Source: Flavobacteriales bacterium
GTDB lineage: Bacteria; Bacteroidota; Bacteroidia; UBA10329
Assembly (NCBI GenBank): GCA_021739695.1
Contig: JAIPBM010000005.1
Span: forward strand, 124,001-188,000
Direction of reading: 5' to 3'
Length of the DNA: 64,000 nt
The position numbers were made by a program, and so were the translations under genes. Below, in pieces: positions 3,373 through 63,164 of this stretch. The notes beneath the pieces were generated by a model, which saw only the letters and a list, made by a program, of their open reading frames with translations, searched no databases and was not told the origin of the DNA. Position 1 is the first letter of the stretch. Each line of letters starts with the position of its first letter.

Positions 3373-3379
3373 AGCGTTG

Positions 3380-3387: not shown

Positions 3388-3408
3388 CTAAGCCCAAAGC
3401 GGCTTCCT

Positions 3409-3416
3409 TACATTTG
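3409..3416 (+). promoter_or_regulatory. Bacteroidota -7 promoter box for the M1 aminopeptidase gene
   Basis: TACATTTG matches TAnnTTTG and sits 22 bases ahead of the chosen ATG at 3439. It supports that start over the longer open frame, whose first codons lie inside aroC. It is back to back with the aroC promoter box, with 21 bases between them. Confidence 0.5.
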
Positions 3417-3438
3417 TGCCAACCACAACACGAATAGA

Positions 3439-7223: not shown

Positions 7224-7993
7224 AGTAATCCTTTGTTGAATGCGTCAACGCGAATTTCGGTCAAAACCTTTTTGGTGTAGCTAGGAAATTGCGCATCCAT
7301 CATCCAAGAATAATATCCTGGTTGCGTTTTCAGTACTTCAACCACAGATTTTCCTTTGTTCTTACCGAAGTTGAAAACTGGTTCGCCCTTTTCGTTCTCT
7401 ACGATGTGTCCTGCAAAATCGACTGCTTTACCCCGTCTCGAAAAATCATGGAGCATCTGAACATCGCCTTCTAGCTCGTCATACTTCTCAACCTGAGCTT
7501 TCAAAACTTCCATCGTGGCACGAGTATCGGCTTCAGCACTGTGGGCATTTGTCAGGTCGCCATCGCAATAGAACTTGTAAGCAGCCACCAAGGTCCGCTG
7601 TTCCATTTTATGGAAGATATTCTGCACATCGACCACTTTTCGGCCTTTCATTCCAAAATCGACATCATTCCGAAGAAATTCCTCCACCATCAATGGCACA
7701 TCAAATTTCAAACAATTGTAGCCTGATAGATCTGCGTTACCAATAAACTCCTTGATCTTTGGAGCCAATTCTTTGAAAGAAGGTTTATCGGCAACCTTAT
7801 CGTCCGTTATTCCATGAATATCAGAACTTTCCTTCGGAATTGGCATTCCTGGATTGACCAATTCGGTCATTACCTCCTCCGATCCATCTGGATTGAGTTT
7901 AATCACAGAGATTTCGACTATGCGGTCTTCGGCAACATTCACGCCAGTGGTTTCAAGGTCGAAAAAGGCAAGCGGACGTTTTAGTTGGAGCAT
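7220..7993 (-). CDS. DEDDh 3'-5' exonuclease with C-terminal DUF3820-like domain
   Basis: The 257-residue protein has a DnaQ-type exonuclease domain over about residues 8-180. The catalytic set is Asp12 and Glu14 (FFDLETTG), Asp98 (YNCLKFDVP), His151 and Asp156 (AHSAEADTRAT), which is the complete DEDDh constellation. The last 50 or so residues (FNFGKNKGKSVVEVLK, then GYYSWM) resemble the DUF3820 module often attached to such nucleases. It could serve as a proofreading or repair nuclease, but it is not fused to a polymerase. It starts 5 bases after the end of the TPR/PD40 gene upstream and overlaps the FAH gene downstream. Confidence 0.92.
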   Translation of the reverse strand: MLQLKRPLAFFDLETTGVNVAEDRIVEISVIKLNPDGSEEVMTELVNPGMPIPKESSDIHGITDDKVADKPSFKELAPKIKEFIGNADLSGYNCLKFDVPLMVEEFLRNDVDFGMKGRKVVDVQNIFHKMEQRTLVAAYKFYCDGDLTNAHSAEADTRATMEVLKAQVEKYDELEGDVQMLHDFSRRGKAVDFAGHIVENEKGEPVFNFGKNKGKSVVEVLKTQPGYYSWMMDAQFPSYTKKVLTEIRVDAFNKGLL

Positions 7994-7998
7994 CTATT

Positions 7999-9906
7999 TT
8001 ACTTAGATGGTACTTCAAGACCTTGCTCAACCAGCAACCATTTTTTGTTGATGATCTTCTGATAATCGCCAAAACCCATGATGTTCACCTTTTCCTTGAT
8101 AGGCTGAAACCCTGGAGCTTCTACTGTGAATTCGTAAGTCTGACCTGGAAAAAGTGCAAAGACGATTTTGCCAGAATTATAATTTGGCAGATACGTACCA
8201 ACCATTTGACCCGATTTATCCGTCACAGTTGCTGTAATTTCCAAATTGGTTAAGCCAATGATCGGAGATTTCTTTGGTTCAACCTTTTTCGGTGGAACTG
8301 CCACTTTCTTTACCCGAGTATCAAGCCATTGAAATGCTCCTCCTTTGGGAAAATTGGCTTGAGTGAATTTCGAAACCTCACCTCCATCAACAGAGCCAAT
8401 TATAGTAATCTCGTAAGATTCTCCATTTTTTATCTCCACGTTCTTCGTTTCAACGAATTCCCATTCAGGTTTATCCATTGGTTGATATTCGTCCGTAAAC
8501 CATTTGACATTCCCGTCTCCAGTGTTTTTCCACTCATGAAAAACGATGAACTCCTTTTCTGAACCCATCATAATCTCAAGATCAACAACAACAGCTGTCT
8601 GCTGCTCTTCAAAATCCTCGAAAACCACCCGATAAACATCAAGATCACCCAATCCACCTTTCCGTAACTGTGCAGTATAACCGTATCGTGGATCGTCTGT
8701 TGGACAGAAAGTAAAGTTGTCCATCGTGTTGTTTATGGGGTAGCAGAGCCCTTCTGGACGTTCCCATCGATTGAACTGCTCATTCCATTCACTCTTGTAT
8801 ATGTCGTAACCTCCCATGCTTTTGTGGCCTTGAGAAGCAAAATAGAGTGTTTTCCCATCAGCTGAGATCACAGGATACATCTCATCATACTGCGTATTGA
8901 TGGTAGGCCCGAGATTAACTGGAATAGACCATTCTCCCGTTGGTAGAAGTTTAGCCATAAAAATGTCGAGACCACCAAAACCGGGTTGTTCAATTGGCAA
9001 CCGGGCAATGAAAAGTGTTTGACCATCGGGTGTGCATGTAGCTGCCATTTCTGGCTCTTCGGTATTTATGGATTCGCCCAACGTTTTTCCCTTCTCCCAT
9101 CTTCGGCCACTGAATTCACTCATCCAGATGTCATCAAATCCATCCATGTTATCTATCATGTAAAAGATATGATCGCCATAGGCAGACATTCCAACAAATT
9201 CCTCCACAAATTCAGTATTGATGGTCATACCAACACCTTTTGCCTTTTTAAATTCGCCATACTTGGATTGTGTCCAAAATATATCGGCCGGTTTATACCC
9301 ATCAAAGTCCAAATTTTGTCCAGCAACTCCTTTGTCTCGTTTTGTTGAAAACACCAAAAACGACTGGTCCAAAGGCACAAAAGGATGCATATCAGGACCA
9401 TCAGAATTTATGTCATCACCTAAATTCTCGAACCTCACGTTACAGGAGTTCTTCATGAGTTTTCGAGCATTCTCACAGAATTCAATCTGCCTGGTGGCGT
9501 CAATAATTCGTTCCGGTTTTGTGACGGTGAGTTTATACTTATTAAGAAACAATAATGCACTGTCCACCTGCTCATTATACATATATGCGATACCAAGATC
9601 ATAGTAGACTTCGTTGTCGCACTTTTCCATATTGCTAACTTTTCGGAGATACGGAATTGATCTGCTTTTATCGATGTTCTGATAAAGATGACATAAGCCA
9701 ACACGCCAATTTAGAAAAGCATCTTCTGGACTTTCGGCTAGAAGTTTCACATACTCGGTAAACGCATTCTTGTAATCCCCAAGATCGAATAGATTCTTAG
9801 CCCTTGCTATAGGAGTTGCCCCCTTTACATCTTCAACTTGGGCGTATGCATTGAAATTGCAGAGAATGACGACAATCCAAATCGATATGCTTACAATCTG
9901 TCTCAT
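7999..9906 (-). CDS. periplasmic TPR and PD40 beta-propeller protein, PorE-like, no OmpA domain
   Basis: The protein is 635 residues if started at the ATG at 9906, which gives a clean signal peptide (MRQIVSISIWIVVILCNFNA, cut after AQ). An in-frame ATG at 9939 would add 11 charged residues. TPR-like helices follow (about 25-135), then PD40/WD40-like propeller blades with motifs such as LVFSTKRDKG and GHKSMGGYDIYKSEW. A C-terminal beta-rich part ends in a CRD-like fold (YEFTVEAPGFQ). It is the third gene of a C > B > A set whose members are 4-10 bases apart. The same layout occurs in three neighbouring proteins. By comparison with P. gingivalis PorE it may belong to an envelope scaffold, but it lacks a peptidoglycan-binding domain of its own. 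Confidence 0.8.
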   Translation of the reverse strand: MRQIVSISIWIVVILCNFNAYAQVEDVKGATPIARAKNLFDLGDYKNAFTEYVKLLAESPEDAFLNWRVGLCHLYQNIDKSRSIPYLRKVSNMEKCDNEVYYDLGIAYMYNEQVDSALLFLNKYKLTVTKPERIIDATRQIEFCENARKLMKNSCNVRFENLGDDINSDGPDMHPFVPLDQSFLVFSTKRDKGVAGQNLDFDGYKPADIFWTQSKYGEFKKAKGVGMTINTEFVEEFVGMSAYGDHIFYMIDNMDGFDDIWMSEFSGRRWEKGKTLGESINTEEPEMAATCTPDGQTLFIARLPIEQPGFGGLDIFMAKLLPTGEWSIPVNLGPTINTQYDEMYPVISADGKTLYFASQGHKSMGGYDIYKSEWNEQFNRWERPEGLCYPINNTMDNFTFCPTDDPRYGYTAQLRKGGLGDLDVYRVVFEDFEEQQTAVVVDLEIMMGSEKEFIVFHEWKNTGDGNVKWFTDEYQPMDKPEWEFVETKNVEIKNGESYEITIIGSVDGGEVSKFTQANFPKGGAFQWLDTRVKKVAVPPKKVEPKKSPIIGLTNLEITATVTDKSGQMVGTYLPNYNSGKIVFALFPGQTYEFTVEAPGFQPIKEKVNIMGFGDYQKIINKKWLLVEQGLEVPSK

Positions 9907-9945
9907 CCGCTCTTCGATATGGCTTTTCCAAGTTCTCATTTCTGC

Positions 9946-12900
9946 TTAGTACTTACCGATTTCAAGCTTATAAATAGCTTCAGTAATTGCGATGTCAGCA
10001 TTCTTGAAGTAGAAAACTCCTCCCCAATCCCAAGTCTTCTTTTCGTAAATGGTCACAACATTGCTCTCGTTGATGACGTGCCGTACTAAGACAAAGTTCT
10101 TTCCCTGAACTGTTTCCTTGGTTAAACCTTCTGGATAGATCTTTGCCAACTCAGAAAGGAATGCCTTACGCTGCTCATCCTCAGTCAGATCCATTGATTT
10201 AAGTGATTCTTGTAGCTTCTCATACTTCTCTATACGCTCCTTCTCCAACTCGGCAACAGTTTTCTGCTGTTGTGCCTTATTCTCATCTACCTTACCTAAA
10301 GCAGCTAATCTAGCTTCTTGTTCTTTTAGAACCAGAGCAGCCTCCTGATCTTTCCTTATGCGTTCTGCTTCTTGCTGATCAGCAAACTTCTTTTCAGCTT
10401 CTTTCTCTCTGCGTTTTTTTTCTTCGGCAGCAGCGGCAATTTCTGATTTTAGACCTTCAATTTCCTTCAACTTGGCAATCGGCTCTGCATCAGTTGGCTT
10501 CATGCTTCTAGCCTCTTCATATTTGCTCTGCGACTCGTCCAATTTGCCTGACTCCAATAACTTGGCAGCTTCTTGCATCACTAGCACAAAACGTCTTTCG
10601 GCTTCTTGCTTCGCTTTTTGTTCCGCCGCTAACTGAGCAACTTTCTTGTCGATGTCAGCAATTTTCCTCTGGATATCCTTCGACTCAGGTTTTAACTCTC
10701 CTGCCTTAGTCAATTTAGCTTTAGCGGCATCAAAATTCTCACTTGCTAACTCTTCATCCGCTTCGCTCAGGAGAACATCATAACGTTGGTCAATCGCCAA
10801 TTTCGCTGCTTCCTCTTTTTCCACCCTTCTGACTTCAGCTTCTGCCTCTCCCAATTTCTTAGTAGCATCCTTATTTTCTGGATACATCGCCAAGGCCTCT
10901 TTGTATTTGCTTGCACTGGTTGAATAATCCTTTTGGGCCAATGCCTGATCTCCAATACTGATTAACTTGTTATAATTTGCTTTCCGGTCTTGTTCCAATT
11001 GAGCAGCTTTCTGTTGGGCCAATTCTATTTCGCGCTGATCAGCGAGTTTCTTAGCCTCTTCCGCAGCCTTAGCATCCGCAATTTCTTTTGCTAATCGGGC
11101 TTTTTCAGCCTCTGCTAACAATCGTTGTTCTTCCTTAATTCTATCTTGTTCTGCTTTCTGTGCAGCAAGTGCCTCTGCTTTTTGCTTGTTTGCCTCATCC
11201 TCTAAACGCTTTCGTTCAGCATCTGCGGCTTGAGCCTGAGCAACTTCCTGTTCCTTTCTGATTTTTTCCTGATACGCGAGATCTTTCTGTTCCTCTTTCA
11301 GACGATCCGCTTCCTGTTTTTTTGCTGCAAGTTCTTGAGCCTTCCTGTCAGCTTCTGCCGCCTGATCTGCTTCTTGCTTACGCTTTTCTAACAGAGCAAG
11401 CTGTTCTCTGGCTGCTTTAGCGGCAGCTTCAGCCTCTTTGTTCTTTCGTTCTGTATCAGCTGCTGCCAAAATTTCAGCTTCCTTCTTCTCTTGTTCTAGC
11501 CGTCTGGTACGCTCCTGCTCCACTACAGCCAATTCTTCCGCTGCTCGTTCTTTTTCCAGAACCTCGCGTTTCGCCTGCTGCATCGCAAGTGTTTTTTCTA
11601 ACTCCTCCTCCTGTTTTTTCTGTTCTGTCAAACGTTCCTGACGTTCAATTTCAACTTTGTGAAGAGTTTCCTCGTAAGCAACAGCGGCTTGCTCAGCTTC
11701 TTGTTCGGCTCGTTTTTGTTGGACCTTTGCAATATCAATTGCCTTCTCTGTTCTTTGTTCCTCGTACTTGGCCAACTTCTGATCCTCTTGCGCTTGTTTT
11801 TGTTGAAATTCTCTTTCAAGCTTCGCTAGCTCAACTCCGTCAGCGGCAGCAAATAGCACACTGAAATCTATCTTCGAACCCGTATTTCCCGACTTTTTAA
11901 TTCGTTCACTTTCCAGTAGATAAGCATCAAATACGGCTTCCGCCCTTTCTCTGTCCATTTCCTTGTCGTCCGTTTGAGGCAAGGCTTTTTGAATTGCTTC
12001 GACACTTTTATCTCTATCACCGGCTCCTTTTTCAATTGCCGAAGCCAAATCAGACTCTTTTTTGTTTTTCGACTTGGCTAACTCTGCCTGATGCACATCT
12101 TTCACCTGTATCTCAGCAGCTACCGCAAGTTCTGACTTCTCCTTTCGAATATCTTCACGTTTAGCCTCTAATTCTTGTTGGGCTTTTAGTTTTTCTAAAG
12201 CATTCTTCTCTTTAGTTTCTGCCTGAGCTGTTTCTGCTGCTCTGTCGGCCACCATGAATAGCGAGCCAAAGTCCATAGCAATGGCTCCTGTGCCTCCTTG
12301 TGCTTGTTTGCTCTGAACATAATCATCGTACATTCTTTGAGCGACCCCATCTCTATCAGGAGTGTCATCAGGAAGTGCATTATAAAAAACTGCCAATTGA
12401 GATTCTTTATCAGGCGCAGCGGTTTTCAATTGCACTTCAATCTGTTCGATTGACTTTTTCTGCTTCACATAATGCTCATACATAGCATTTGCTTTCTCTT
12501 CCTTGTATGGGTCATTCTTAGGAAGCGCGTCTTTAAAAATGGCGACCTGGCTTGCTCGATCACGAGGAGCATCCTTTAACCCTGTCTCAATCTTTCCAAT
12601 TATCTGTTCCTGCTCCCTTTCCTTTTGCTCAGCAACGCGTTCTTTGAATTCGTCCAATGCCGTTTTTCCTTTCGAACGATCCTTTTCCAACTCTTTTTGA
12701 ATGGCTGCCTGCTCAGCAATATCTGCTGCCTTAAATAGGTTTCCGAAATTCATATTAGAAAGCGTAGTGCCAGTAAGCCTTTCTTTTTCATATGCTTCAA
12801 AAATGGCCTTCGCCTTCTCCTCTTTATAAGGATCTGTTTTCGGAAAGGTCTTTACAAGGTTTTGTATTGCAACTGCGCTTTCCCCATTAGAATTGAATAT

Positions 12901-13989
12901 GGCATAATATACCTTGTCCTTTTTCTCAATTTCTTCTTGCTTTTTCTTAACCTCTTCATTTGCAATGGCAGTTGCTAACTTCTCTTGAGCCTGAAGTTCA
13001 ATTGCTTTTTGCTGAATCGCCATTACCTCCTTGGACTTTTGGGCAGCTTCTTCCTTTTCTGCCTTTAGCACAGCAACTTTGGCCTCTCGCTTCTCTTCTG
13101 CCTCCTTTACTACTTTATCCTCAACAATTTTTGCCGAAGCGAAAATGGCTTGAAAGTTCAACTTTGACCCAGTTGCTTTTGACTGTTTTCTTTCTTCCAA
13201 CAACTGATCATACATGGCTTCGGCCTTCTTCTGTCTTAGCGTGTCAACCTCAGGAAAAACCTCCAAAAACCCTTTAATCGTTTTATCCTTGTTTCCATCT
13301 CCAACAGTAATTGCTGCTGCAATTATCTCTTGCGCAGAAGCATTTTCCTTATCCAAAAGCATCTTAGCAGCTTCTTCGAGTGCTTGCTTCTTCTCGTAGG
13401 CCTGCTGGGCCATACGTTCCTTTTCCTGTCTTTTTCTTAGTTCAATTTCCTCATTCTCCATATCTTCCTTGGAGTAATCAAGCTGATAATCGAACTCATT
13501 TCTTTTGATCTGGTAGAAGACAGCTGCAACAGCTCGGGTAAAGGCAAGACCATCGAGATCCTGAACCATATCAACTTGAAACTCGAATTTCGGGACCGTT
13601 GTATATTGCTCTCGCGCTAGTGTTACATCAGTATCAAAATCAACCATTTTAGTGGTATAGCCACCTTTCTCTACAGAGAGAACAAAAAATTTATTGATTT
13701 CTAATTTGAACTCAAACTCACCATTTCCTGGAGACACGGTTTTATAGATCTCAGTCAAATTCTCATGAGAGCCATCTGGCGATTCATAAAGTGTAATTAT
13801 TGCACCTTTTAGCTTTTTTGATAATTCTATTACGTAGCCTTTGAATTCCAAAGGTCCTTTGATCTTTGACTGATTCAGTAAGGTATCCGAATAGTTGTCC
13901 GTTACCTGCGCAACAACTACTGTGTCTATTGAACACAATACCACAAATGCCGCGAAAAAGAATCTTGATATTTTCTTGATCAATGCCAC
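9946..13989 (-). CDS. large periplasmic coiled-coil protein with an unrecognised five-copy repeat and TPR-like tail
   Basis: This 1347-residue protein has a signal peptide (cleavage near residue 28) and a small beta-sandwich at about 43-140. It has five copies of a roughly 70-residue unit near residues 223-290, 362-425, 464-512, 517-584 and 650-718. Each copy has a Phe/Leu-Pro turn (ALPxxD), then A-x-A-M-Y-D/E-x-Y, and in four copies an NFxxLFxAAD-type helix. A highly charged Lys/Glu/Ala/Gln coiled coil fills about 720-1045, and three TPR-like helical pairs follow at about 1045-1200. I do not recognise the repeat. The gene starts 4 bases after the OmpA/WD40 gene and ends 6 bases before the in-frame ATG at 9939 of the next gene, so it is in the same operon. 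A long periplasmic rod or tether is inferred. Confidence 0.75.
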   Translation of the reverse strand: MALIKKISRFFFAAFVVLCSIDTVVVAQVTDNYSDTLLNQSKIKGPLEFKGYVIELSKKLKGAIITLYESPDGSHENLTEIYKTVSPGNGEFEFKLEINKFFVLSVEKGGYTTKMVDFDTDVTLAREQYTTVPKFEFQVDMVQDLDGLAFTRAVAAVFYQIKRNEFDYQLDYSKEDMENEEIELRKRQEKERMAQQAYEKKQALEEAAKMLLDKENASAQEIIAAAITVGDGNKDKTIKGFLEVFPEVDTLRQKKAEAMYDQLLEERKQSKATGSKLNFQAIFASAKIVEDKVVKEAEEKREAKVAVLKAEKEEAAQKSKEVMAIQQKAIELQAQEKLATAIANEEVKKKQEEIEKKDKVYYAIFNSNGESAVAIQNLVKTFPKTDPYKEEKAKAIFEAYEKERLTGTTLSNMNFGNLFKAADIAEQAAIQKELEKDRSKGKTALDEFKERVAEQKEREQEQIIGKIETGLKDAPRDRASQVAIFKDALPKNDPYKEEKANAMYEHYVKQKKSIEQIEVQLKTAAPDKESQLAVFYNALPDDTPDRDGVAQRMYDDYVQSKQAQGGTGAIAMDFGSLFMVADRAAETAQAETKEKNALEKLKAQQELEAKREDIRKEKSELAVAAEIQVKDVHQAELAKSKNKKESDLASAIEKGAGDRDKSVEAIQKALPQTDDKEMDRERAEAVFDAYLLESERIKKSGNTGSKIDFSVLFAAADGVELAKLEREFQQKQAQEDQKLAKYEEQRTEKAIDIAKVQQKRAEQEAEQAAVAYEETLHKVEIERQERLTEQKKQEEELEKTLAMQQAKREVLEKERAAEELAVVEQERTRRLEQEKKEAEILAAADTERKNKEAEAAAKAAREQLALLEKRKQEADQAAEADRKAQELAAKKQEADRLKEEQKDLAYQEKIRKEQEVAQAQAADAERKRLEDEANKQKAEALAAQKAEQDRIKEEQRLLAEAEKARLAKEIADAKAAEEAKKLADQREIELAQQKAAQLEQDRKANYNKLISIGDQALAQKDYSTSASKYKEALAMYPENKDATKKLGEAEAEVRRVEKEEAAKLAIDQRYDVLLSEADEELASENFDAAKAKLTKAGELKPESKDIQRKIADIDKKVAQLAAEQKAKQEAERRFVLVMQEAAKLLESGKLDESQSKYEEARSMKPTDAEPIAKLKEIEGLKSEIAAAAEEKKRREKEAEKKFADQQEAERIRKDQEAALVLKEQEARLAALGKVDENKAQQQKTVAELEKERIEKYEKLQESLKSMDLTEDEQRKAFLSELAKIYPEGLTKETVQGKNFVLVRHVINESNVVTIYEKKTWDWGGVFYFKNADIAITEAIYKLEIGKY

Positions 13990-13993
13990 GCTA

Positions 13994-16900
13994 TTATTTG
14001 CCTTCAGTGGTTATTATTTGTTCTCCGCCAACCCCGATTATAGTAAGCTCAATACGTCTATTCATCTGACGTCCTTCTGGATTATCTGTTCCATCAGGAT
14101 TTTCGTTAGGTGCTATGTGTTTGGTCTCACCGTATCCTTCTGCCACCATTTGCTTACTCGCGATCTTCCTTTTCTTGAGCCAAGCTACTACACTTTTCGC
14201 CCTGTTCTTAGAAAGTTTCATGTTGTAATCGTCAGAACCTCTTGAATCAGTATGCCCTGAAATCTCAACAATCACACCAGGATTCTTGTCCAAAAAGACC
14301 AGCAATTTGTTCAGCTCTACCACAGATTCATCCCGAATATCATACTTATCGAAGTCGAAGTAAATTCTTTCGAGGATTATTTTTTGTCCGACCTTAAATT
14401 CTTTTTGATTGTACAGGTCGGCATCTAGCAACGTTGGGTCATAACCAAGATCCTTTTGAGCTTCAATAGCTGCCAATTCTTTCTCCAATCGCTCAATTTC
14501 ACTTTCAAGAACTTCTGGTTTATCCTCTGTCCTTCTAACAATTTCCTCTTCCTTTTCTGGGAATTTGATGTACGGAGAAAAGCAAACATCATTTATACTT
14601 GAAGTATGGCCTGTCAATTGGGTTACTTCATCACCTGAATTATAATCCCAAACAATTGGATCACGTTCCATACTACCCGATATGATATACTTGGAATCCT
14701 TCGATTCGAAAACGGAGGAAACCGATTTGTCGTGTCCCAAAAGGACATGCTTCACATCGCCAGTGGTAGCATCCCAGACGTAAACAAAGCCATTATCGCT
14801 ACCAGAAATAATGGTTGAGCCATCAGGGGAAACTTCAACACTATTAACTGATGAACTATGGAGCTTGAAATCCAATAATTCCGCTGATGTCGAAGCGTCC
14901 CATTTCTTTACAGAACCATCCTTTCCGCCAGTGACGATGTAGTTACCGCGAGGAGAGAACGTTGCGCTGCGAACAGGACCTGTGTGTCCTTCGAACAAAC
15001 CAACCAGCTCTTCGGTCATCATCTCCCACATGAGCACATTTCCATCATCAGAACACGACACAAAATAATTACCATCAGGAGATACGGAAACTCCATTTAC
15101 TTGAGCTAGATGCCCAACGTAAATTTTTTCCATAAGTCCAGTCTCAACATTCCAAAGTCGAACAGTTGAATCTGCACTTGCCGACAGTACATATTTACCA
15201 TCATTGCTAAACACAGCTTGAGTCACGCGCTTGTTGTGTCCTTTAAGCGTTTTTTCCTGAATACCACTAGGCATCAACCACAAATTAATATCTCCTTTAT
15301 CAGTGGCAGACAATGCTCTTCGTCCATAAGGGTCAAAAGCCACACTAGTAACCTTTTGTTTATTGTCCAACGACAGAATCTGACGGCCTGTAGGCAAATC
15401 CCAAACCTTGGCCTTTCCATCGTCACTTCCCGACATGGCATAAATGAGTCCACCGTATTTTTCTCCTGTTCGCTTGCGTCTAATTGCCTCTGGATCCGGA
15501 CGGAGTGTATAATCTTTGATGATTTCAGTGACATAGGATGCTTTCCCCATCACTTCAACAACATCGGAAGTATCAAAATAAAGCTCGCCTTCTACGTACA
15601 CACAATACTCACCCGGCTCAAGCACTTGAACGTAATTACTCGATGCCATATTAGGGCGATATGTACCGATAAACTTGTCCGTATTCATGTCGGTAACTGT
15701 CATTTCAAAGGATCCAATATCCATGGTTGGATCAATCAGCATGGAATCTTTAATATTGGTAATTGAACCTCGAACAATAGTATAGACAGGGTCAACATCA
15801 TTAAAAGTTATCCTGTAGATATCGCGTTCACCGAAACCTTCGTCTCTTCTGAACTGAGAAATATAACCGTATCTCCCTGTTGTAGAAAGCGATAAGTTAA
15901 AATCATCATCAACAGTGTTTATTGGGTAACCTGCGTTTTGAGGAGGTGAAAATGTATTGGTCATTTCATCCCATTCAGAAATGAAAATATCAAAGCCTCC
16001 CATCGAAGCATGTCCTTCCGAACAGAAATAAAAGGTCCTCCCGTCAGCCATCAGATGAGGAAAACTTTCATTGAATCTTGTATTGATTATGTCTGGCAAT
16101 TTTTGTGGAATTCCCCAAGATCGGTTGGGCAATCTTCGGGACATATACAGGTCAGTGCCAGTTCGACCCTTAGCTGTTTCTCGTGAGAAGAAAATCAGAT
16201 TCCCATCCGTACTCAAACTAGCCGTAGTCTCAATTTCGTCTGAATTGATATTTCTACCAAGGTCAAGATAATCATCAAAAAAACGACCTTTTCTTGGCGA
16301 CACGTAGATATCATCGTAGCCATCGAAATTGTCGATGTAAACAAGCAACTCTTGCCCATCGGCAGAAATCCCAACAACTTCTTCGTACCATTCCGTATTT
16401 ACGGCAGACCCGATGTTCCTAGCCTCCATGAATTCACCACGATATTCTCTAGACCGAAAAATATCGGGGGTCTTGAATCCATCATAATCAAGTTGAAGAC
16501 CTAAACAATCAGGCCTTTTAGTGGTAAAAACCAAAAAAGACTCATCTTCCGGAATGAAAGGGTTGAACTCAGGATAGGCAGTGTTTACGTTCGAACCCAA
16601 ATTTTCGAAAGTAGCGTCAAGCGGATATTTAACTAGCTGCTTTGCATTAAAGCATTGCTCTATCATTCGCCCACCAGTAATGATATTGTCATTGTCGCCC
16701 CTTGAAATGTCTTTGTACTTATTGAATGTGGTTATCGCCTCATCAAAACGATGTTCGAACATGTAAGCACGACCTAACTGATAAATAGCCTCTTTCGGGA
16801 ACTTTTCTTGCTGAACCACGAATTCTAAATAGCTGATAGCCTTGGATTTATCGATGTTGCTCTCAAGATAGGAAGCTCCGATATAAAAGTTGATATCAAC

Positions 16901-17158
16901 GTCAGTTGGATTGTCAATCAGAAGAATTAGAAGCTCATCAAGGGCCGCACGGAAATTACCGTTCCAGTAATGATCCATTGCAGTACGCTTGGTAATCTTC
17001 AGTCTTCTTTTTGCTTTTTCTTCTTCAGTTTCTTGTATCTCCTTATTGAACTCCTCCTCAGTAACGGCCCTAATGTCTCCAGACTGAGCAAAAACTTTGA
17101 CCTCCGCGATCAGCAATAAAAAGAAGAAAGAAATAAGCGCGGTACTATTTCTGATCAT
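13994..17158 (-). CDS. PorE-like OmpA protein with TPR, PD40 propeller, CRD and seven WD40 repeats
   Basis: The 1054-residue exported protein (signal peptide ending near VFAQ) is organised as follows. TPR-like helices lie at about 40-170 and PD40 blades at about 180-440 (GHASMGGFDIFISEW, GYPINTVDDDF). A carboxypeptidase-regulatory-like beta domain spans about 450-545. Seven WD40 repeats lie at about 570-860, each ending in a Trp dipeptide such as KVWD, RLWN or YVWD. An OmpA C-like domain at about 925-1048 has SGHTDSRGSDDYN and ends in NRRIEL, the peptidoglycan-binding signature. P. gingivalis PorE, a T9SS component, combines TPR, propeller, CRD and OmpA-like domains in the same way; two propellers in one chain is an elaboration. 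It is the first gene of the C > B > A set. No PorP/SprF-type barrel is adjacent, so orthology to PorE is not claimed. Confidence 0.82.
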   Translation of the reverse strand: MIRNSTALISFFFLLLIAEVKVFAQSGDIRAVTEEEFNKEIQETEEEKAKRRLKITKRTAMDHYWNGNFRAALDELLILLIDNPTDVDINFYIGASYLESNIDKSKAISYLEFVVQQEKFPKEAIYQLGRAYMFEHRFDEAITTFNKYKDISRGDNDNIITGGRMIEQCFNAKQLVKYPLDATFENLGSNVNTAYPEFNPFIPEDESFLVFTTKRPDCLGLQLDYDGFKTPDIFRSREYRGEFMEARNIGSAVNTEWYEEVVGISADGQELLVYIDNFDGYDDIYVSPRKGRFFDDYLDLGRNINSDEIETTASLSTDGNLIFFSRETAKGRTGTDLYMSRRLPNRSWGIPQKLPDIINTRFNESFPHLMADGRTFYFCSEGHASMGGFDIFISEWDEMTNTFSPPQNAGYPINTVDDDFNLSLSTTGRYGYISQFRRDEGFGERDIYRITFNDVDPVYTIVRGSITNIKDSMLIDPTMDIGSFEMTVTDMNTDKFIGTYRPNMASSNYVQVLEPGEYCVYVEGELYFDTSDVVEVMGKASYVTEIIKDYTLRPDPEAIRRKRTGEKYGGLIYAMSGSDDGKAKVWDLPTGRQILSLDNKQKVTSVAFDPYGRRALSATDKGDINLWLMPSGIQEKTLKGHNKRVTQAVFSNDGKYVLSASADSTVRLWNVETGLMEKIYVGHLAQVNGVSVSPDGNYFVSCSDDGNVLMWEMMTEELVGLFEGHTGPVRSATFSPRGNYIVTGGKDGSVKKWDASTSAELLDFKLHSSSVNSVEVSPDGSTIISGSDNGFVYVWDATTGDVKHVLLGHDKSVSSVFESKDSKYIISGSMERDPIVWDYNSGDEVTQLTGHTSSINDVCFSPYIKFPEKEEEIVRRTEDKPEVLESEIERLEKELAAIEAQKDLGYDPTLLDADLYNQKEFKVGQKIILERIYFDFDKYDIRDESVVELNKLLVFLDKNPGVIVEISGHTDSRGSDDYNMKLSKNRAKSVVAWLKKRKIASKQMVAEGYGETKHIAPNENPDGTDNPEGRQMNRRIELTIIGVGGEQIITTEGK

Positions 17159-17287
17159 TCGAATTGGTCTATCTAGATTTTCAATCTCAAAGCTTACTCC
17201 AAAAAGCTAGAGAAAATACGGCTAAATATATAGCTTCCGTACGTAAATCACATAAGAAAATAAGAGGAAATCAACACTCAAATCGAG

Positions 17288-20200
17288 TTACCGTATCTGA
17301 GCGCTTTTGGGAACGTTGATTTCTTCGACCTCAACACCATTCACTTTTCCTTCCGGTATACTGATCTCAATCCTTCGATTTAACTGTCTGCCAATAGGAT
17401 TATCAGTAAGATCAGCATTTTCGTTTCGAGCGATAGGACGAGTTTCACCGTATCCAACAGCGGTTAACCGTTTAGATGAAATACCGTTTCGAATAAGATA
17501 ATCAACCACAGCTTGAGCACGATCTTTGGACAACCTCATGTTGTAATCATCATTTCCACGAGAGTCTGTGTGTCCAGAAACCTGAATTTGAATTCCCGGA
17601 TTTTCATTCAAGAACTCGAAAAGTTTATTCAATTCATGGATTGATTTTGACCTCAGCACAGCTTCGTTATAATCAAAGAATATATTTCTCAGAATAAGAC
17701 GTTTCCCTTCCTGAAGATTCTTCATTGTAGAACTCATCGGAATATCAACTTTTTCTCCATCCGGTGCATAATCCAATCTAGCAAGAATCAAATCCAACTT
17801 TCTGTTCAATTCGGCAAGTTCCTTTCTTAGATCTAAATTATCCTGAATCAATTTCCTGTTCAGATTCCGCAACTCATCCAAGGTGGCAGCATTCGATAAA
17901 ATCTCCTCTTTGCTGTAGGCGTCCTTCTCTGCAGCTTCAATCACTTTTTTCTTCTTCTCTTCCGCCTCCAAAGCCGCCTGAACTTGTCTTTGTTGTTCAG
18001 CAACTGCTTCAAGCTGAATCAGCTCACGTTTTGTACGTTCAGCCTCTTCTCTCTGCTCCTTCTGTTGCTGTTCTGCCGCTAAACGTTCTTGTTCAATTCG
18101 CTTTTGCTCCAATGCTTCCAACTCTTTTATCTGACGAGCCGCTTCATCGGCTTCTTGTTGTTTAACCAATGCTTCTTGTGCAATACGTTTCTCCTCTTCA
18201 ATATCACTTGCAACCTTTTCTTGTGCAATAACCACTGCGGATTTCGCCACTTCAACTTCTTTTTCAGCGGTTATAACTTGCTTTTCAACTACGGCCAACT
18301 GACTCTGTAATGCAGCAATTTCTTCTTTGGTCTGGTCAGATTTTTTCACCAACTCCTGCTTTTTCTGCAAAGCCAGCTTTTCCTTTGCTGAGGCTTCAGC
18401 TACAGCGGCCTCATCAACCACTTTCTTTTTCTCGACCTCTACTTTGCTCTTCTTAAGCTGTTCGATTCGAGCCATCATTGCGTCACGCTTAGCTTTGATG
18501 GCATCTGCATCGATAGCTGCCGCAGGTTCTTGAGTTGTCATCTTCTGCACAGCCACTTCTTTCACTGGTTCTTGCACTATTTCCAGTTCTTCCTGTTTCT
18601 CCTGCTCTTGCTGCTTCGCTTTTAGCGCATCAATTCTTTTCTGAAGTTCCTTTTTCTTCAGTTCAGCCTCGGCTAAGCGCTTGGCTTCAGACTCTGCCGC
18701 AGCGGCCGCAAGCTGTTGCGCCAATTCATTGTCTTCCTCAGTTTCTACATTCGATGTTTGTTCAACCGATGGTGACTTCCCGTCTGCATCAACTACAACA
18801 TTCTCATTTACCGTTTCCTGTTCAACCTTGGCTGAAGCTTCTTCTTTCGCTTTTTGTTCAGCAGCCTCGAACTCCTTTCGTATCTGCGCTTGTTCATCAG
18901 CCTCGGCCAACTCTTCCTGCTGCGATGTCTCTTGCGAAGCTTCTTGCTGAGCAACCTCTACTACTTGCAACTCTCCTTGTTCAGGCTCTGAAGTGACTGA
19001 CTTTTCGGACTCAACAACTTCTGTTTGAGGTTGTGAAACTTCTTCGTTGAGTTCAACAATTGGTTCCGACTTCACTTCTTCAGCAGCTTTAGCCATTGCC
19101 GAAGCCTCTTCTTCTGTCTTCTTTTCTGCAGCTTCTTGTTCCGCTTTCTCCTTTGCTAGAGTTTCCTCTTTAACTCTGGCTTCCTCTTCAGCTTTTGCCT
19201 TCGCTACATTCTGCTCTTCTTGCAACCTCGCTACCTCCTCAGCTTTTGCACTTGCTAGATTCTGTTCTTCTTGTAGTCTAGCCTCCTCTTCAGCTTTTTT
19301 CTGAGCTAGCTCAGCTTCTAGTTTCAACTTTGCTTCTTCCTCTGCATTCTGTTTGGCAGCTTGGGCTTGCTGCGCTTCGAACTTTGCTTTTGCCTCTGCT
19401 TTTCTTCTATCTAATTCCGCTTTTTTAGCTTTTTCCTCTTCTAAAGCCAATGCTGCAGCAGCATCGTCTTTTTCTTTAGCTGCTAGTTGTTCTGCCTTTT
19501 TCCGTTCGGCATCCTTTTCTTGTGCCAGCGCTAACTCTTCGGCCTCCTTCTTGGCTTTGGCATCAGCTTCTTGCGCTAACCGTTCTTGCTCCGCCACTTT
19601 TGCAGCCGCAATCGCTTTTTCCTCTTCAAGTACTTTGGTTTCTTTCTGAATAGCAAGAATGTCCTTTCCGAACACTACTTCTTCCAGCTCAACAACACCA
19701 TCATACTCCGCGTAAACTTCACCTTCTGCAACGGGTAGTTTCGAAACAACTGTTTCATATCCATCTGCTTCGTACGAAACGGTGTAGGTTTCTCCTGGTT
19801 TAAGAATGAGTACATAATACCCCGTAGTTGGGTTTGGATGATATGTTCCTACTTGGGCACCGCCTTCGTCTGTTACAACGATCTGAGCTTTGATATCGGC
19901 ATAAGCCATTGCAGGAACTTTCATGATTCCACGCGCAACAGCTGCTCCTTCTGTTTTCTTGACTTCCAAACGAAGTTTGTAAAGGTCTGTGTCGCCAAAA
20001 CCACCATCCATTCGCGAACTGTAGTATGCGTGCCTTCCATCTGGCGTTAAGACAAAGAATACATCATCTTCAGCTGTATTTATCGGGTATCCAATATTCT
20101 CTGGAAGTGTCCATGATCCATCTTCAAATTCTGACCTGAAAATGTCAAATCCTCCCATCGAGGTATGACCTTGTGAACTGAAGATAAGTGTCTGTCCATT

Positions 20201-21277
20201 TGCAGAAAGAAAGGGAGAATCCTCTTCAAACTGCGAGTTGATGACACTACCCATGTTGATGGCAAGTCCCCATTCTCCATTCGGCAATTTCTTGCAATAC
20301 CAAAGATCGCGGCCACCATAACCGCCATCGCTTCGGTTCGACACGAAAATGAGCATGTCTTGTGTAGCATTCACGGTGGCATGCGTTTCCCAAGAGCTCG
20401 TATTTATATCTGAGCCCATTGGCTCAGGCTTGGTCCAATCATCACCACTCCTTTTACTGTAATAAATGTTGCCATCGCCATTATCGTCTTTATAGATGAA
20501 CAACAATTGGCCATCAGGAGATAGACCAATTGCAGCTTCGTGTCCTGGCGTATTAATATTTGAACCTATACTTTTTGGCCTGCTCCACGTTCCATCACCT
20601 TGCTTAGAACAGACATAGATATCGTCATAGTAATTTCCGTTTTCATCCTTTGCATCGCCAGTTCCCCCTTCTCTTCTGGAGGTAAAAATGAGCACACGGT
20701 CATCGGCAGATACAACAGGACAGTAATCTGGATACTTCGTGTTGATGTTCGCGCCCAGATTGGTGATTTTAACTCCGACAGGTGTTTTTATCAACTCCAT
20801 CGCGTTTTCAGCGTACTGAATCTGTTGCCTAACCTGATTATAGGTTTCAACATCATCCATTTCGATGAATGACCGATAATTGTAATAATTGGTTACCGCT
20901 CTATCGAACAGATTCTTGAAATGATAAGCACGACCTAAAACGTAATATGCTTTTCCGGGCGCTTTACGTTCCTTCCAATTCGCTTCTTGGTATTCTAAGG
21001 ACACATCTCTTGTTGCACTTTCCAACCTTCGAATAGCCAACGTATGATTTTTGCTACCCATAAGGTAACACACGCCAAGCAGGTAATTAAGATTAGCATT
21101 GGTACTATCGTCCGCATACATTTCTTCCAAAAGCGGCAACGCTTCCAGATAAGCGCCATCAAAAACCAAGGCATCTGCCTTATTGAATTTTTGCTTGAAT
21201 TTTGGGTCGCCATAAGGCTGTGCTATGCAAGCCACAGACAATAAACAGAGCAACCCGCACGAGATCAAATACTTCAT
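17288..21277 (-). CDS. PorE-like OmpA protein with TPR, PD40 propeller, CRD and very long coiled coil
   Basis: The 1329-residue protein has a signal peptide (MKYLISCGLLCLLSVACIAQ). TPR-like helices lie at about 25-160, PD40 blades at 170-430 (GHTSMGGFDIFRSEF, GYPINTAEDDVFF) and a CRD at about 442-530. A Glu/Lys/Ala/Gln-rich coiled coil of some 600 residues covers about 540-1165. An OmpA C-like domain at about 1196-1312 contains SGHTDSRGNDDYN and NRRIEI. The OmpA end should bind peptidoglycan while the propeller end reaches toward the outer membrane or partner proteins. The ATG has a good purine-rich site ahead (AGGAAAAGGGAA) and its own promoter box at 21358-21365. The long coiled coil between the two ends is unusual for the family and could act as a spacer. 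Confidence 0.82.
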   Translation of the reverse strand: MKYLISCGLLCLLSVACIAQPYGDPKFKQKFNKADALVFDGAYLEALPLLEEMYADDSTNANLNYLLGVCYLMGSKNHTLAIRRLESATRDVSLEYQEANWKERKAPGKAYYVLGRAYHFKNLFDRAVTNYYNYRSFIEMDDVETYNQVRQQIQYAENAMELIKTPVGVKITNLGANINTKYPDYCPVVSADDRVLIFTSRREGGTGDAKDENGNYYDDIYVCSKQGDGTWSRPKSIGSNINTPGHEAAIGLSPDGQLLFIYKDDNGDGNIYYSKRSGDDWTKPEPMGSDINTSSWETHATVNATQDMLIFVSNRSDGGYGGRDLWYCKKLPNGEWGLAINMGSVINSQFEEDSPFLSANGQTLIFSSQGHTSMGGFDIFRSEFEDGSWTLPENIGYPINTAEDDVFFVLTPDGRHAYYSSRMDGGFGDTDLYKLRLEVKKTEGAAVARGIMKVPAMAYADIKAQIVVTDEGGAQVGTYHPNPTTGYYVLILKPGETYTVSYEADGYETVVSKLPVAEGEVYAEYDGVVELEEVVFGKDILAIQKETKVLEEEKAIAAAKVAEQERLAQEADAKAKKEAEELALAQEKDAERKKAEQLAAKEKDDAAAALALEEEKAKKAELDRRKAEAKAKFEAQQAQAAKQNAEEEAKLKLEAELAQKKAEEEARLQEEQNLASAKAEEVARLQEEQNVAKAKAEEEARVKEETLAKEKAEQEAAEKKTEEEASAMAKAAEEVKSEPIVELNEEVSQPQTEVVESEKSVTSEPEQGELQVVEVAQQEASQETSQQEELAEADEQAQIRKEFEAAEQKAKEEASAKVEQETVNENVVVDADGKSPSVEQTSNVETEEDNELAQQLAAAAAESEAKRLAEAELKKKELQKRIDALKAKQQEQEKQEELEIVQEPVKEVAVQKMTTQEPAAAIDADAIKAKRDAMMARIEQLKKSKVEVEKKKVVDEAAVAEASAKEKLALQKKQELVKKSDQTKEEIAALQSQLAVVEKQVITAEKEVEVAKSAVVIAQEKVASDIEEEKRIAQEALVKQQEADEAARQIKELEALEQKRIEQERLAAEQQQKEQREEAERTKRELIQLEAVAEQQRQVQAALEAEEKKKKVIEAAEKDAYSKEEILSNAATLDELRNLNRKLIQDNLDLRKELAELNRKLDLILARLDYAPDGEKVDIPMSSTMKNLQEGKRLILRNIFFDYNEAVLRSKSIHELNKLFEFLNENPGIQIQVSGHTDSRGNDDYNMRLSKDRAQAVVDYLIRNGISSKRLTAVGYGETRPIARNENADLTDNPIGRQLNRRIEISIPEGKVNGVEVEEINVPKSAQIR

Positions 21278-21357
21278 TTCCCTTTTCCTCAGAACTACTG
21301 TTGCAGTGAGTGTTCTTACTTAACGGATGCCCATTTAACGGTCAATCCATAATCTCG

Positions 21358-21365
21358 CAAAGATA
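21358..21365 (-). promoter_or_regulatory. Bacteroidota -7 promoter box for the coiled-coil OmpA gene
   Basis: On the minus strand the site reads TATCTTTG, an exact TAnnTTTG. It lies 80 bases ahead of the ATG at 21277, inside the 143-base gap after the upstream TPR/PD40 gene. It suggests the OmpA gene has its own transcript; no clear -33 element was seen. Confidence 0.4.
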
Positions 21366-21420
21366 TAAGAATTAGAAAGCGGCAGAATATTATGGCGATT
21401 ACCCAAAGCTGCGATGCGAA

Positions 21421-23052
21421 TTACTTATTCAGAGCAACACTTTTTAGCTGAACAGCCCGGTTGATTTCGAAGTAAGAACTGTTTTCTGGAACATATAGTT
21501 TCTCTGATTTGTAGAGATAACCGTCCGCTTCATAGGAAATGTTGTAGTTCTGTCCTGGATGAAGAATGAGAACGAATCGGCCATTATCCTGTCTTGGTTT
21601 GTAGACTCCGAATAGTTCGCCTGTTTCGTTATCGGTTACCTTGATGGAAACGTCCTCTGGTCGCTTGCCTGTCGCATCTGGCACTATCTCGCCTTTGTAA
21701 ACTGTCAACGGAATCTCGCGATCTGTGTCCAAATTGACCAGATAAATATCCTTACCACCTAAACCTTGTCCGCTAGAAGATGAATAATAAGCCCGCTTAC
21801 CATCCGCAGACATAACGAAGAAGTATTCGTCATCAGCGGTATTCATTGGTTGACCAACATTCATTGGAGTTGACCATTTTCCGTTCTCTTCAATGGAGAA
21901 GAAAATATCATAGCCTCCCATGCTATTATGTCCTTTGGAACTGAAAAAGAGCGTTTTCCCGTCAGGGTGAATGAATGGCGCCTCTTCATCATATTTTGTA
22001 TTAACCACATCTCCCAAATTTTCGGAAACGGACCATTCACCAGTTGGTAATCTGCGACTACGGAAAATGTCCATACCGCCTAATCCAGATTTATCCGAAG
22101 TGTAATACAGCGTTTGTCCATCGGCCGAAACGGTAGCATGTGTTTCTCTAAATGGAGAATTGATATTGCTGTTTAACAGTTTCGGTTCGCTCCATGAACT
22201 TCCTTTAAATTCAGAAACATAGATATTTCCATCTCCAAAATCATCTCGGTAGATGTAAAGTTCTTGACCATCCGCAGAGAGACCGATCGTTGCTTCATGA
22301 CCTTCTGTATTGATCGTACTACCAATGCTTACAGGCTTGCCCCAGGTTCCGTCTTTCTGTTTCTGCGACACAAAAATGTCTTCGAAATACTTGTCGTCCA
22401 GATCCAACAAACCACCTGTGCTTGTAGGCCTTCTAGATGTAAAAATGAGCATCGACTCCGTGGCATCTACCACAGCAGAGTATTCGTCATAAATTGAATT
22501 GATGTTTTCTCCCAGATTCTCAATCGTTGCGCTAATTGGAGATTCAACGATCAACTTGCCATTGAGGCACGTTTGTATCATCCATTCAATTTCCTCGATC
22601 CTGTCTTTGGCCAACGATTTATCAACTTCCATGTACTTACGATATGCTACAATCGCGTTGTCGAACTGCGAATTGAGATGATAAGCACGTCCCAAATAGA
22701 AATAGGCATCCAATGGCGCCTGAACTTCTTTGTAACTGTCCTTTGATTTTGCACTGGCCTTCGAAACAGCCTTTTCCAAATATGGTACTGCCTCACTTTT
22801 CTTTCCATTCATCAACAGTAAACATCGCCCCACCTTGTAGCTCAAGAAAGCATTGGTTGGGTCTATAGTAAGCATGTCTTGGAAATTCTTGACCGCCCTT
22901 TCTGGCCTTTTGGCTTCCAACTGTTCGTTCGCAACTGGGTAAACACGCTTAAAATGCGCCTCTTTATTCACCTCGCGTTGGGCAAAACCAGCAGAACTGC
23001 ACAGAAAAAGAATGGCAATTACTAAGAGTAAGAGTCGACTCATTTGGTACAT
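21421..23052 (-). CDS. periplasmic TPR and PD40 beta-propeller protein with CRD, no OmpA domain
   Basis: The 543-residue exported protein starts MYQMSRLLLLVIAILFLCSS and is cut after GFAQ; the second ATG, at 23043, is an equally good start. TPR-like helices occupy about 30-180, PD40 blades about 185-440 (GHNSMGGYDIFFS, GQPMNTADDEYFF), and a carboxypeptidase-regulatory-like domain the last 90 residues. It matches the N-terminal half of the next gene (17288-21277) domain by domain but lacks the coiled coil and OmpA part. A duplication followed by loss or gain of the C-terminal half is the likely history. It is the most upstream member of the five-gene envelope cluster. Confidence 0.8.
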   Translation of the reverse strand: MYQMSRLLLLVIAILFLCSSAGFAQREVNKEAHFKRVYPVANEQLEAKRPERAVKNFQDMLTIDPTNAFLSYKVGRCLLLMNGKKSEAVPYLEKAVSKASAKSKDSYKEVQAPLDAYFYLGRAYHLNSQFDNAIVAYRKYMEVDKSLAKDRIEEIEWMIQTCLNGKLIVESPISATIENLGENINSIYDEYSAVVDATESMLIFTSRRPTSTGGLLDLDDKYFEDIFVSQKQKDGTWGKPVSIGSTINTEGHEATIGLSADGQELYIYRDDFGDGNIYVSEFKGSSWSEPKLLNSNINSPFRETHATVSADGQTLYYTSDKSGLGGMDIFRSRRLPTGEWSVSENLGDVVNTKYDEEAPFIHPDGKTLFFSSKGHNSMGGYDIFFSIEENGKWSTPMNVGQPMNTADDEYFFVMSADGKRAYYSSSSGQGLGGKDIYLVNLDTDREIPLTVYKGEIVPDATGKRPEDVSIKVTDNETGELFGVYKPRQDNGRFVLILHPGQNYNISYEADGYLYKSEKLYVPENSSYFEINRAVQLKSVALNK

Positions 23053-23132: not shown

Positions 23133-24467
23133 CTAAATGGTTCTATTGATGTCCCAATTCTCTAAATAATCGGCTACTCTACGAACAAATGAACCACCCA
23201 AAGCACCATCAACAATACGATGATCGTATGAATGGGAAAGAAACATCATGTGGCGGATGGCAATGGCATCGCCCGTTGGTGTTTCTATGACAGCTGGTTT
23301 CTTGCGAATGGCGCCAACAGCCATAATGGCGACCTGAGGTTGGTTGATGATGGGTGTTCCCATCACGTTTCCAAACGTTCCCACATTGGTCATGGTATAG
23401 GTTCCTCCTTGAATCTCTTCTGGCTTCAGTTTATTTGCCCGAGCGCGTTCAGCAAGATCATTTACGGCTTTAGTAAGTCCGAGCAAACTCATTTGGTCTG
23501 CGTTTTTGATAACAGGAACAATCAAGTTGCCCGATGGCATGGCCGCAGCCATTCCCATATTGATCGATTTACGCTTGATGATATTCTGACCATCCAACGA
23601 TACGTTGACGCCCGGCATGTCTTTTATCGCTCGGACGAGACACTCGATGAAAATCGGGGTGAAGGTGAGCTTCTCACCTTCCCTTCTTTGGAAGTCATCC
23701 TTCACCTTATTTCTCCACATGACCACATTGGTCAAATCGGCTTCTACATAGCTGGTAACGTGTGGTGATGTATGTTTGCTCATCACCATGTGTTCGGCAA
23801 TGATCTTACGCATTCGGTCCATTTCCACGATCTCATCTCCTGCCATCAACGGAATGGAAGCATGTCCTACAGAAGCCGTTGCGTGAACTTTAGCTGCTGG
23901 CTTGGCCACCACTGGCTCTGGTGTTGCTTGTGTCTGCGTTCCTCGGTTAGGTAGATAGCTAAGTATATCTGCTTTGGTTACTCTTCCACCTTGACCACTA
24001 CCCGAAATTGATTCCAATTCTTTGAGGGAAACGCCTTCTGTCTGTGCAATGGTTCTTACCAATGGCGAATAGAATTTACCTGAATCGGAGCGTTTAGGAA
24101 TGTCGCCAACCTCCGTTGCTCCATTTGATGAAGAGCCATTAGAATACGCTGGCTCTGCAATTACTTGAGTTGATTCGTTCTTAACAGGTTCTGGAGCTGT
24201 AGGAGTTGATTCTACCTTTGCTTCTGCCTCGGTAGAAATGTATGCTACTGGGCTTCCTACCTGAACCACGTCATCGGCTTGGCAGCATTGCTCGGCAAGC
24301 ACTCCACTTACAGGCGATGGAATCTCAGAATCCACCTTATCGGTAGCAATTTCCATGATCGGCTCGTCCATTTCTATGACATCGCCAACCTCTTTTAGCC
24401 AACGGATAACCGTTGCTTCTGCAACACTTTCGCCCATTTTGGGCATCAACACTTCAACTTTAGCCAT
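23133..24467 (-). CDS. 2-oxo acid dehydrogenase E2 component (dihydrolipoamide acyltransferase)
   Basis: The 444-residue protein has one lipoyl domain (lipoate Lys44 in EIATDKVDSEIP), a flexible linker, and an E1/E3-binding domain at about 133-171 (SPLVRTIAQTEGVSLKELES). The catalytic acyltransferase domain ends in SYDHRIVDGALGG, where His416 and Asp420 belong to the HRxxDG active site. It transfers acyl groups to CoA in a pyruvate or branched-chain 2-oxo acid dehydrogenase complex. No E1 or E3 gene is next to it, so the substrate cannot be fixed. A TACCTTTG promoter box lies 19 bases ahead of the ATG, which suggests separate transcription from the neighbouring glycosyltransferase gene. Confidence 0.92.
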   Translation of the reverse strand: MAKVEVLMPKMGESVAEATVIRWLKEVGDVIEMDEPIMEIATDKVDSEIPSPVSGVLAEQCCQADDVVQVGSPVAYISTEAEAKVESTPTAPEPVKNESTQVIAEPAYSNGSSSNGATEVGDIPKRSDSGKFYSPLVRTIAQTEGVSLKELESISGSGQGGRVTKADILSYLPNRGTQTQATPEPVVAKPAAKVHATASVGHASIPLMAGDEIVEMDRMRKIIAEHMVMSKHTSPHVTSYVEADLTNVVMWRNKVKDDFQRREGEKLTFTPIFIECLVRAIKDMPGVNVSLDGQNIIKRKSINMGMAAAMPSGNLIVPVIKNADQMSLLGLTKAVNDLAERARANKLKPEEIQGGTYTMTNVGTFGNVMGTPIINQPQVAIMAVGAIRKKPAVIETPTGDAIAIRHMMFLSHSYDHRIVDGALGGSFVRRVADYLENWDINRTI

Positions 24468-61371: not shown

Positions 61372-61397
61372 GGTCATTCCCTTTTAGTTCAACCAAC

Positions 61398-63122: not shown

Positions 63123-63164
63123 TTCTTAATTCCAGTAGGTTTTTAGCTTCTTAAACGAATCTGT

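Follow-up and report, generated by a model that had tools for sequence, protein, structure and literature searches.

A stretch of 64,000 nucleotides (the window) from the genome of a Flavobacteriales bacterium carries five consecutive genes, named E, D, C, B and A, which may encode a peptidoglycan-anchored periplasmic scaffold of PorE-like subunits, a reading for which we regard the chances as evenly balanced. The window corresponds to contig C5:124001-188000 of the source genome G000 (4.24 Mb, 98% complete, Bacteroidota). What the analysis shows are the domains of the proteins, their export signals (judged by eye), the peptidoglycan-binding residues, the conserved gene order and the positional orthology of the genes; we infer that the five proteins form one complex with E and A as its unanchored subunits and B as a bridge, and likewise what the PorE-like heads bind. 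All five genes are located on the minus strand and are read in the order E, D, C, B, A. An earlier note on this DNA had given the five open reading frames with exactly these positions and this strand:

21421..23052, minus strand: gene E, 543 aa, first gene of the array; Sec signal peptide, TPR, PD40 propeller and CRD, without OmpA domain.
17288..21277, minus strand: gene D, 1329 aa; Sec signal, TPR, PD40, CRD, a helix of ~650 residues rich in Ala/Glu/Lys and an OmpA peptidoglycan-binding domain.
13994..17158, minus strand: gene C, 1054 aa; Sec signal, TPR, PD40, CRD, a seven-bladed WD40 propeller and an OmpA peptidoglycan-binding domain.
9946..13989, minus strand: gene B, 1347 aa, GTG start; Sec signal, transthyretin/CRD-like N-domain, helical modules, three TPR hairpins, a long helix and a mostly-beta C-terminal domain.
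7999..9939, minus strand: gene A, 646 aa, last gene of the array; Sec signal, TPR, PD40, an extra segment of ~115 residues and CRD, without OmpA domain.

The description of E, D, C and A as four TPR/PD40/CRD paralogues with a common motif, which goes back to the earlier note, was borne out by Pfam searches and by reading of the motif. PD40 is present in all four proteins (Pfam, E-values 3e-15 to 1e-29), TPR was detected in A and E, and the models of PorE and CHU_0125 cover the TPR region of C and D. The CRD is only weakly detected by Pfam (gene E 0.005, under the cut-off), and its assignment in E, D, C and A depends less on Pfam than on homology to the PorE/CHU_0125 models; in gene A ~115 residues separate it from the propeller. 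The motif GHxSMGG[YF]DI is common to A (GHKSMGGYDI), C (GHASMGGFDI), D (GHTSMGGFDI) and E (GHNSMGGYDI), and its GG and D are invariant across 21 gene E orthologues. The two OmpA ends (Pfam, 1e-18 in gene C and 9e-22 in gene D), the seven WD40 repeats of gene C (1.5e-57; the blades counted by eye) and the coiled region of gene D were likewise found as the note had listed them. In the crystal structure of PorE, Asp576, Asn584 and Arg591 touch peptidoglycan (PMC7192894), and equivalents of all three residues are retained in the OmpA domains of both gene D (SGHTDSRGNDDYNMRLSKDRAQAV) and gene C (SGHTDSRGSDDYNMKLSKNRAKSV). The helical region of gene D is composed of 21% Glu, 19% Ala, 13% Lys and 10% Gln. 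Stretches free of proline and glycine extend over 253 and 198 residues in D and over 294 residues in B, which corresponds to 30-44 nm if these form single helices (0.15 nm per residue). A simple motif test revealed no credible lipobox in any of the five proteins; the single motif match, at residues 4-7 of gene D, lies at the very start of the signal peptide and is not credible.

Gene B, for which no Pfam family scored above the cut-off, had been described as a giant coiled-coil protein unrelated to its neighbors. The rod character stands, while the protein does not appear unrelated, as Foldseek comparison of AlphaFold2 models points to a transthyretin/CRD-like N-domain and to TPR hairpins. The model of residues 24-700 (pLDDT 79, pTM 0.32) starts with a beta-sandwich, whose Foldseek matches in the PDB include many transthyretin-like and related folds. 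Short helical modules of the pattern DPYKEEKA..MYE.Y...[DN]F..LF..A are repeated and linked by helices of up to ~90 residues. The model of residues 1000-1347 (pLDDT 83, pTM 0.43) shows three TPR hairpins within long helices, which were matched by TPR proteins. The C-terminal domain is mostly beta, contains the motif WGG[VI]FYFKN and is four-stranded in the model at moderate confidence. It yielded no Pfam match and no PDB sequence match (best E 0.45), and the best Foldseek matches of the whole C-terminal model were all TPR proteins. This domain (window 9949-10230, ~90 residues with invariant Y, G, E, WGG and F) also ends two further proteins, a CRD-TPR-coil paralogue in G000 (L189) and a MORN-repeat coil protein (L188). 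As an observation in its own right, C-terminal domains like that of gene B close several kinds of long Bacteroidota rod proteins, including CRD-TPR-coil and MORN-coil proteins (L188, L189, L196, L197, L199, L103, L106, L107).

In the proposed scaffold, D and C would grip the cell wall by their OmpA domains and carry the TPR/PD40 head at the far end, in D on a very long helical stalk and in C beside the second, WD40 propeller. E and A would be heads without an anchor that join by their TPR or propeller faces, and B would be a rod of tens of nanometres with its own CRD-like N-domain and C-terminal domain that bridges or spaces the heads. By analogy to PorE, which holds PorP, the heads probably hold outer-membrane or T9SS-linked (type IX secretion system) partners. 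Helices of 30-44 nm exceed the distance from the outer membrane to the wall, so the rods would have to run along the wall, be folded back or be paired. The lengths of the orthologues differ by hundreds of residues, which suits spacers and not a fixed ruler. The notion of a multi-part scaffold, raised in the earlier note, fits this combination of wall-bound and free PorE-like subunits with a giant rod.

The array fills a conserved slot of the order GT2-E2-[array]-exonuclease-FAH, the borders of which are in the window:

24521..26506, minus strand: family 2 glycosyltransferase (GT2), Pfam Glycos_transf_2; part of the synteny.
23133..24467, minus strand: 2-oxoacid dehydrogenase E2 component, Pfam 2-oxoacid_dh, lipoyl and E3-binding domains; adjoins the first array gene in most loci surveyed.
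7220..7993, minus strand: ExoX/DnaQ-type exonuclease, Pfam RNase_T and ExoX-like_C.
6612..7223, minus strand: putative fumarylacetoacetate-hydrolase (FAH)-type gene, named by resemblance; part of the synteny in most slots surveyed.

The locus thus belongs to the class of E2-to-exonuclease PorE-like arrays as defined in this analysis: TPR-PD40 genes in tandem, all on one strand, with an E2 gene on one side and an ExoX-like exonuclease gene on the other. Survey of the gene order, which the earlier note had suggested, showed the five genes kept together as E-D-C-B-A in seven genomes from two GTDB families (G000, G004, G005, G011, G057, G184 and G093, the last as L109 plus L216), and D-C-B-A in two further families; the refuting condition named in that note, separation of the genes in related genomes, is thus not borne out. 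Partial contigs of six more genomes (G001, G002, G003, G006, G008, G053) agree with the full order. Both the E2 and the exonuclease border were present in 26 surveyed loci, with 1-4 PD40 genes each. Four families, f1, f4, f42 and f46, were found to have gene B in the slot, always between C and A. In other lineages of the class the slot is without B, and its PD40 genes number from one, as in Acidiluteibacter ferrifornacis (L177), to seven in L072, a locus in which no exonuclease was found. Gene E orthologues are 77-83% identical in six members of the genus and 61% identical in two more, and an uncultured Flavobacteriales bacterium (L108) encodes a gene E that is 82% identical. A chance neighborhood of the five genes is ruled out by the synteny. 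The WD40 propeller of gene C is restricted to genus g1 and is missing from the gene C orthologues of f4, f46 and f42 (745-762 aa), by which it is ruled out as an ancestral element of the design.

A phylogenetic tree of 98 rows, calculated by a quick method with SH-aLRT support and containing long branches, places the last slot gene in one clade (29 rows, SH-aLRT 100) that contains both C and A, with A as sister to C, while first-position and middle genes sit in other, less well resolved groups. By this tree the array genes are positional orthologues across families. Because the last-gene clade contains both C and A, the last gene was probably duplicated in this lineage and B then placed between the two copies; gene C has an OmpA domain, which last genes elsewhere do not have. 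In other families the orthologues at the first position mostly measure 650-690 aa and end in an OmpA-type tail, and because most of them keep this tail, gene E has probably lost it. An alternative is that a common envelope gene was duplicated in tandem without much consequence for function, as could be suggested by the array size of 1-7 across the class and by recent local duplicates (L072 p4/p5, L073 p2/p3). However, positional orthologues are kept across families, the cluster in the window is free of broken copies, the motifs are conserved and identity within the genus amounts to 61-83%; this reading, already disfavored by the conserved order, is hardly credible. Two observations on slot genes elsewhere are added here. 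Those of most other families (L117, L123, L133, L160, L165, L185 and others) end in a divergent tail, SASxVPTxxYxxN..L...RA, where other residues stand in place of the His-Thr-Asp of the peptidoglycan-binding motif; one weak Pfam match (5e-4) and inspection suggest that the tail is perhaps OmpA-like. The single slot gene of A. ferrifornacis (L177:10007-13369) has several extra carboxypeptidase-regulatory repeats (five Pfam stretches) between propeller and tail, which is another lineage-specific elaboration.

A tie to the T9SS or to gliding had also been proposed. The window itself holds part of the secretion core outside of the array:

60526..63962, minus strand: GldN-GldM-GldL, T9SS core genes (Pfam GldN, GldM, GldL), on the strand of the array and 37 kb away from it.

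GldK and PorP follow just past the window edge (L079, C5:188009-190391), forming an operon PorP-GldK-GldL-GldM-GldN on the strand of the array. In the class sample SprA was found in 240 of 247 genomes, and a profile of the first gene (E) strongly matches 238 of the 240 SprA-positive genomes; this profile also sees PorE and other family members. Five SprA-negative genomes (G032, G039, G047, G079, G143), of which G047 has GldN nevertheless, show marginal or no profile matches. Two further SprA-negative genomes, G065 and G186 (56% complete), were read as assembly gaps and counted as T9SS-positive. The candidacy of G065 as a T9SS-negative array carrier (no SprA, GldN or GldL) was rejected, since it encodes at least 150 T9SS sorting tails. 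Counted in this way, the wider family is present in 240 of 242 genomes with T9SS and in none of the five without (Fisher 3e-9), a co-occurrence that is descriptive only. In the family-lacking genomes the surroundings of the E2 gene are heavily rearranged, as seen in an empty-slot comparison. In the slot of G037, three genes on the strand of the array, one GldL-like (107 bits, cut-off 68), one GldM-like and one unassigned, separate the array from E2. The gaps measure 17, 20 and 7 bp, and the third gene overlaps the first array gene by 4 bases; G037 is a single suggestive case for a T9SS link. Judged from these gene contents and neighborhoods, the array is probably T9SS-linked, the tie being indirect: the family is missing or near-missing without SprA, the core operon lies in the same window and G037 has its motor pair.

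The cassette is also of interest in itself, as it recurs in six genomes (L070 in G037:C5, L251 in G041, L252 in G084, L253 in G292, L254 in G194, L256 in G220). Its third gene encodes 425-774 aa without known family, the GldL-like open reading frame is not listed in L254, and neither GldK nor GldN is encoded beside it. By its gene content the cassette is possibly a second GldLM-type motor. It was rejected as a regular component of the slot because it is found there in G037 only.

A role specific to gliding is directly supported only by the presence of GldJ in the genome. If B and D formed a periplasmic gliding track, rods along the wall would guide T9SS-driven adhesins; the helical rods are long enough to lie along the wall and G000 encodes GldJ and GldKLMN. 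However, no carrier has a known gliding phenotype, the proteins are without lipid anchors, the slot of many lineages is occupied by one gene only and no linkage to gldJ or sprB was seen, which makes a track very unlikely.

The building blocks of the array are known from PorE of P. gingivalis, which shares TPR, beta-propeller and CRD and, with C and D, the OmpA domain with the same three peptidoglycan-contacting residues (PMC7192894). In contrast to PorE, the array proteins come as an array, add a coil, a WD40 propeller and a rod partner, are without lipobox and score 127-247 bits against the PorE model. These scores (NCBIfam NF052230; A 126.9, C 217.7, D 246.7, E 181.5 bits) are below the cut-off of 600, whereas the PorE of G000 itself, encoded on contig C47, reaches 619.6 bits. 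As this PorE also is without lipobox, that feature is not universal. Further PorE-like genes of G000 are located on contigs C21, C31 and C27. PorE and the three other PorE-like proteins of G000 split from the array genes in the tree (SH-aLRT 98), by which the array genes are likely, though not proven, to lie outside the PorE clade. Identity of the array proteins with PorE is ruled out by the NCBIfam scores, the tree and the separate PorE of the genome. The contrast drawn in the earlier note, by which P. gingivalis has one such gene, is misleading, as 14 PorE homologues were reported in Tannerella forsythia and more than 20 in Flavobacterium johnsoniae, the latter not predicted to be lipoproteins (PMC7192894). 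These expansions resemble the present case in the many PorE-like genes per genome and, for F. johnsoniae, in the missing lipid anchor; a conserved positional array and a giant rod partner were not described there (PMC7192894, PMC9143113).

In P. gingivalis, PorE was shown by pull-down to form a complex with PorP and bridges it to the wall; among tested precedents for the heads, this one is the nearest. Six porP-like genes of F. johnsoniae adjoin porE-like genes, unlike in this array; such PorP-PorE-like pairs of F. johnsoniae were proposed to anchor type B C-terminal domain (CTD) proteins (PMC9143113). Accordingly, each head could serve as T9SS accessory anchor, pairing with one of the eight PorP/SprF-like barrels that G000 encodes elsewhere, by which non-mobile surface proteins with a type B CTD would be held at the wall. 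The pull-down and the F. johnsoniae neighbors, the eight PorP-family genes above cut-off in G000 and the co-occurrence of the wider family with T9SS are in line with this. However, no PorP was found in the slot of the window nor, by search, in other E2-exonuclease slots. Within the cluster there is no PorP match, in agreement with the earlier note, and the sole one on contig C5 (189518-190387) is more than 40 kb away, although the operon to which it belongs begins 37 kb from the array. A PorP/PorE-like pair is already present on contig C31 of G000, E and A have no wall anchor and the array genes group apart from PorE and from the C31 protein. Accessory anchors are rather unlikely. The C31 pair (L077, G000:C31:2907-6019) is located near a 1471-aa protein.

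The best NCBIfam match of all four paralogues is CHU_0125_OmpA (NF053607; A 166, C 266, D 269, E 194 bits), named after the OmpA-like outer membrane integrity protein of C. hutchinsonii with the same TPR-PD40-OmpA architecture (PMC5891637). Deletion of chu_0125 damaged membrane integrity and resulted in ~six times more vesicles (PMC5891637). The array might thus provide general outer-membrane stability tethers without a specific secretion role, its size following envelope demands. The best matches of 166-269 bits and the deletion phenotype argue for this, but all matches are far below the cut-off of 620 bits, the two subunits E and A are without OmpA, most slot genes elsewhere have only the divergent tail and the wider family is absent from T9SS-free genomes. 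We consider tethers of this kind improbable.

TolA/Pal-type trans-periplasmic systems combine an Ala/Glu/Lys-rich long helix with a peptidoglycan-binding OmpA-fold domain. Both are also present in the array, which in contrast has no inner-membrane anchor or motor gene, and the comparison is limited to generic OmpA matches.

Returning to the scaffold, several findings weigh against it or against its link to secretion. Gaps of 4-10 bases, as claimed in the earlier note, separate C from B (4 bp) and B from A (6 bp), and A is followed by the exonuclease after 5 bp, but E-D and D-C are 143 bp and 129 bp apart; in promoter scans, sites were no more numerous than in shuffled sequence. Gene E lies apart from the D-C-B-A remainder in G007 and G049. 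Complete gene D orthologues span 1164-1553 aa, and stalk lengths varying by hundreds of residues between species speak against a precise geometry. The pTM values of the B models are low (0.43, 0.32), so that only local folds were used. The family-T9SS correlation cannot single out the array from PorE and is descriptive because the profile sees PorE, the genomes are relatives of one another and nearly all of the class has T9SS. The GldL/GldM-like cassette is inside the slot in G037 only, and the five other genomes carry it elsewhere without PD40 genes. A further-reaching version, by which the genes encode an undescribed modular T9SS-linked periplasmic apparatus, has to be called doubtful; this apparatus would be a wall-anchored lattice of PorE-like heads, to which the present lineage adds the second propeller and the giant rod as a bridge, and it would set the places of T9SS motors or surface-adhesin complexes along the cell.

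Two other genes of the window are recorded here. The gene at 47813-55681, in a stretch of higher GC content (about 0.49-0.53 vs about 0.44), encodes a protein of 2622 aa in which collagen triple-helix repeats are very extensive (Pfam Collagen 5e-168) and which also has a DUF4082 stretch. The gene at 3247-5823 encodes an M1-type peptidase whose C-terminus is a T9SS sorting domain (Por_Secre_tail).

The building blocks of the array are known and the multiplicity of PorE-like proteins is published (PMC7192894); the conserved array is the new part. In the open literature, most subscription papers being outside the search, no description of a positional array, of its split into anchored and unanchored subunits or of its giant partner was found. 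To our knowledge, it is an open question how Bacteroidota attach the T9SS and other outer-membrane machinery to the wall, and the numerous PorE homologues are mostly unstudied. The conserved, positionally orthologous array offers a defined set of partners for this question, including a giant rod without Pfam assignment, and it shows that PorE-like proteins are split into heads with and without wall anchors, a split that the single-gene model from P. gingivalis does not suggest.

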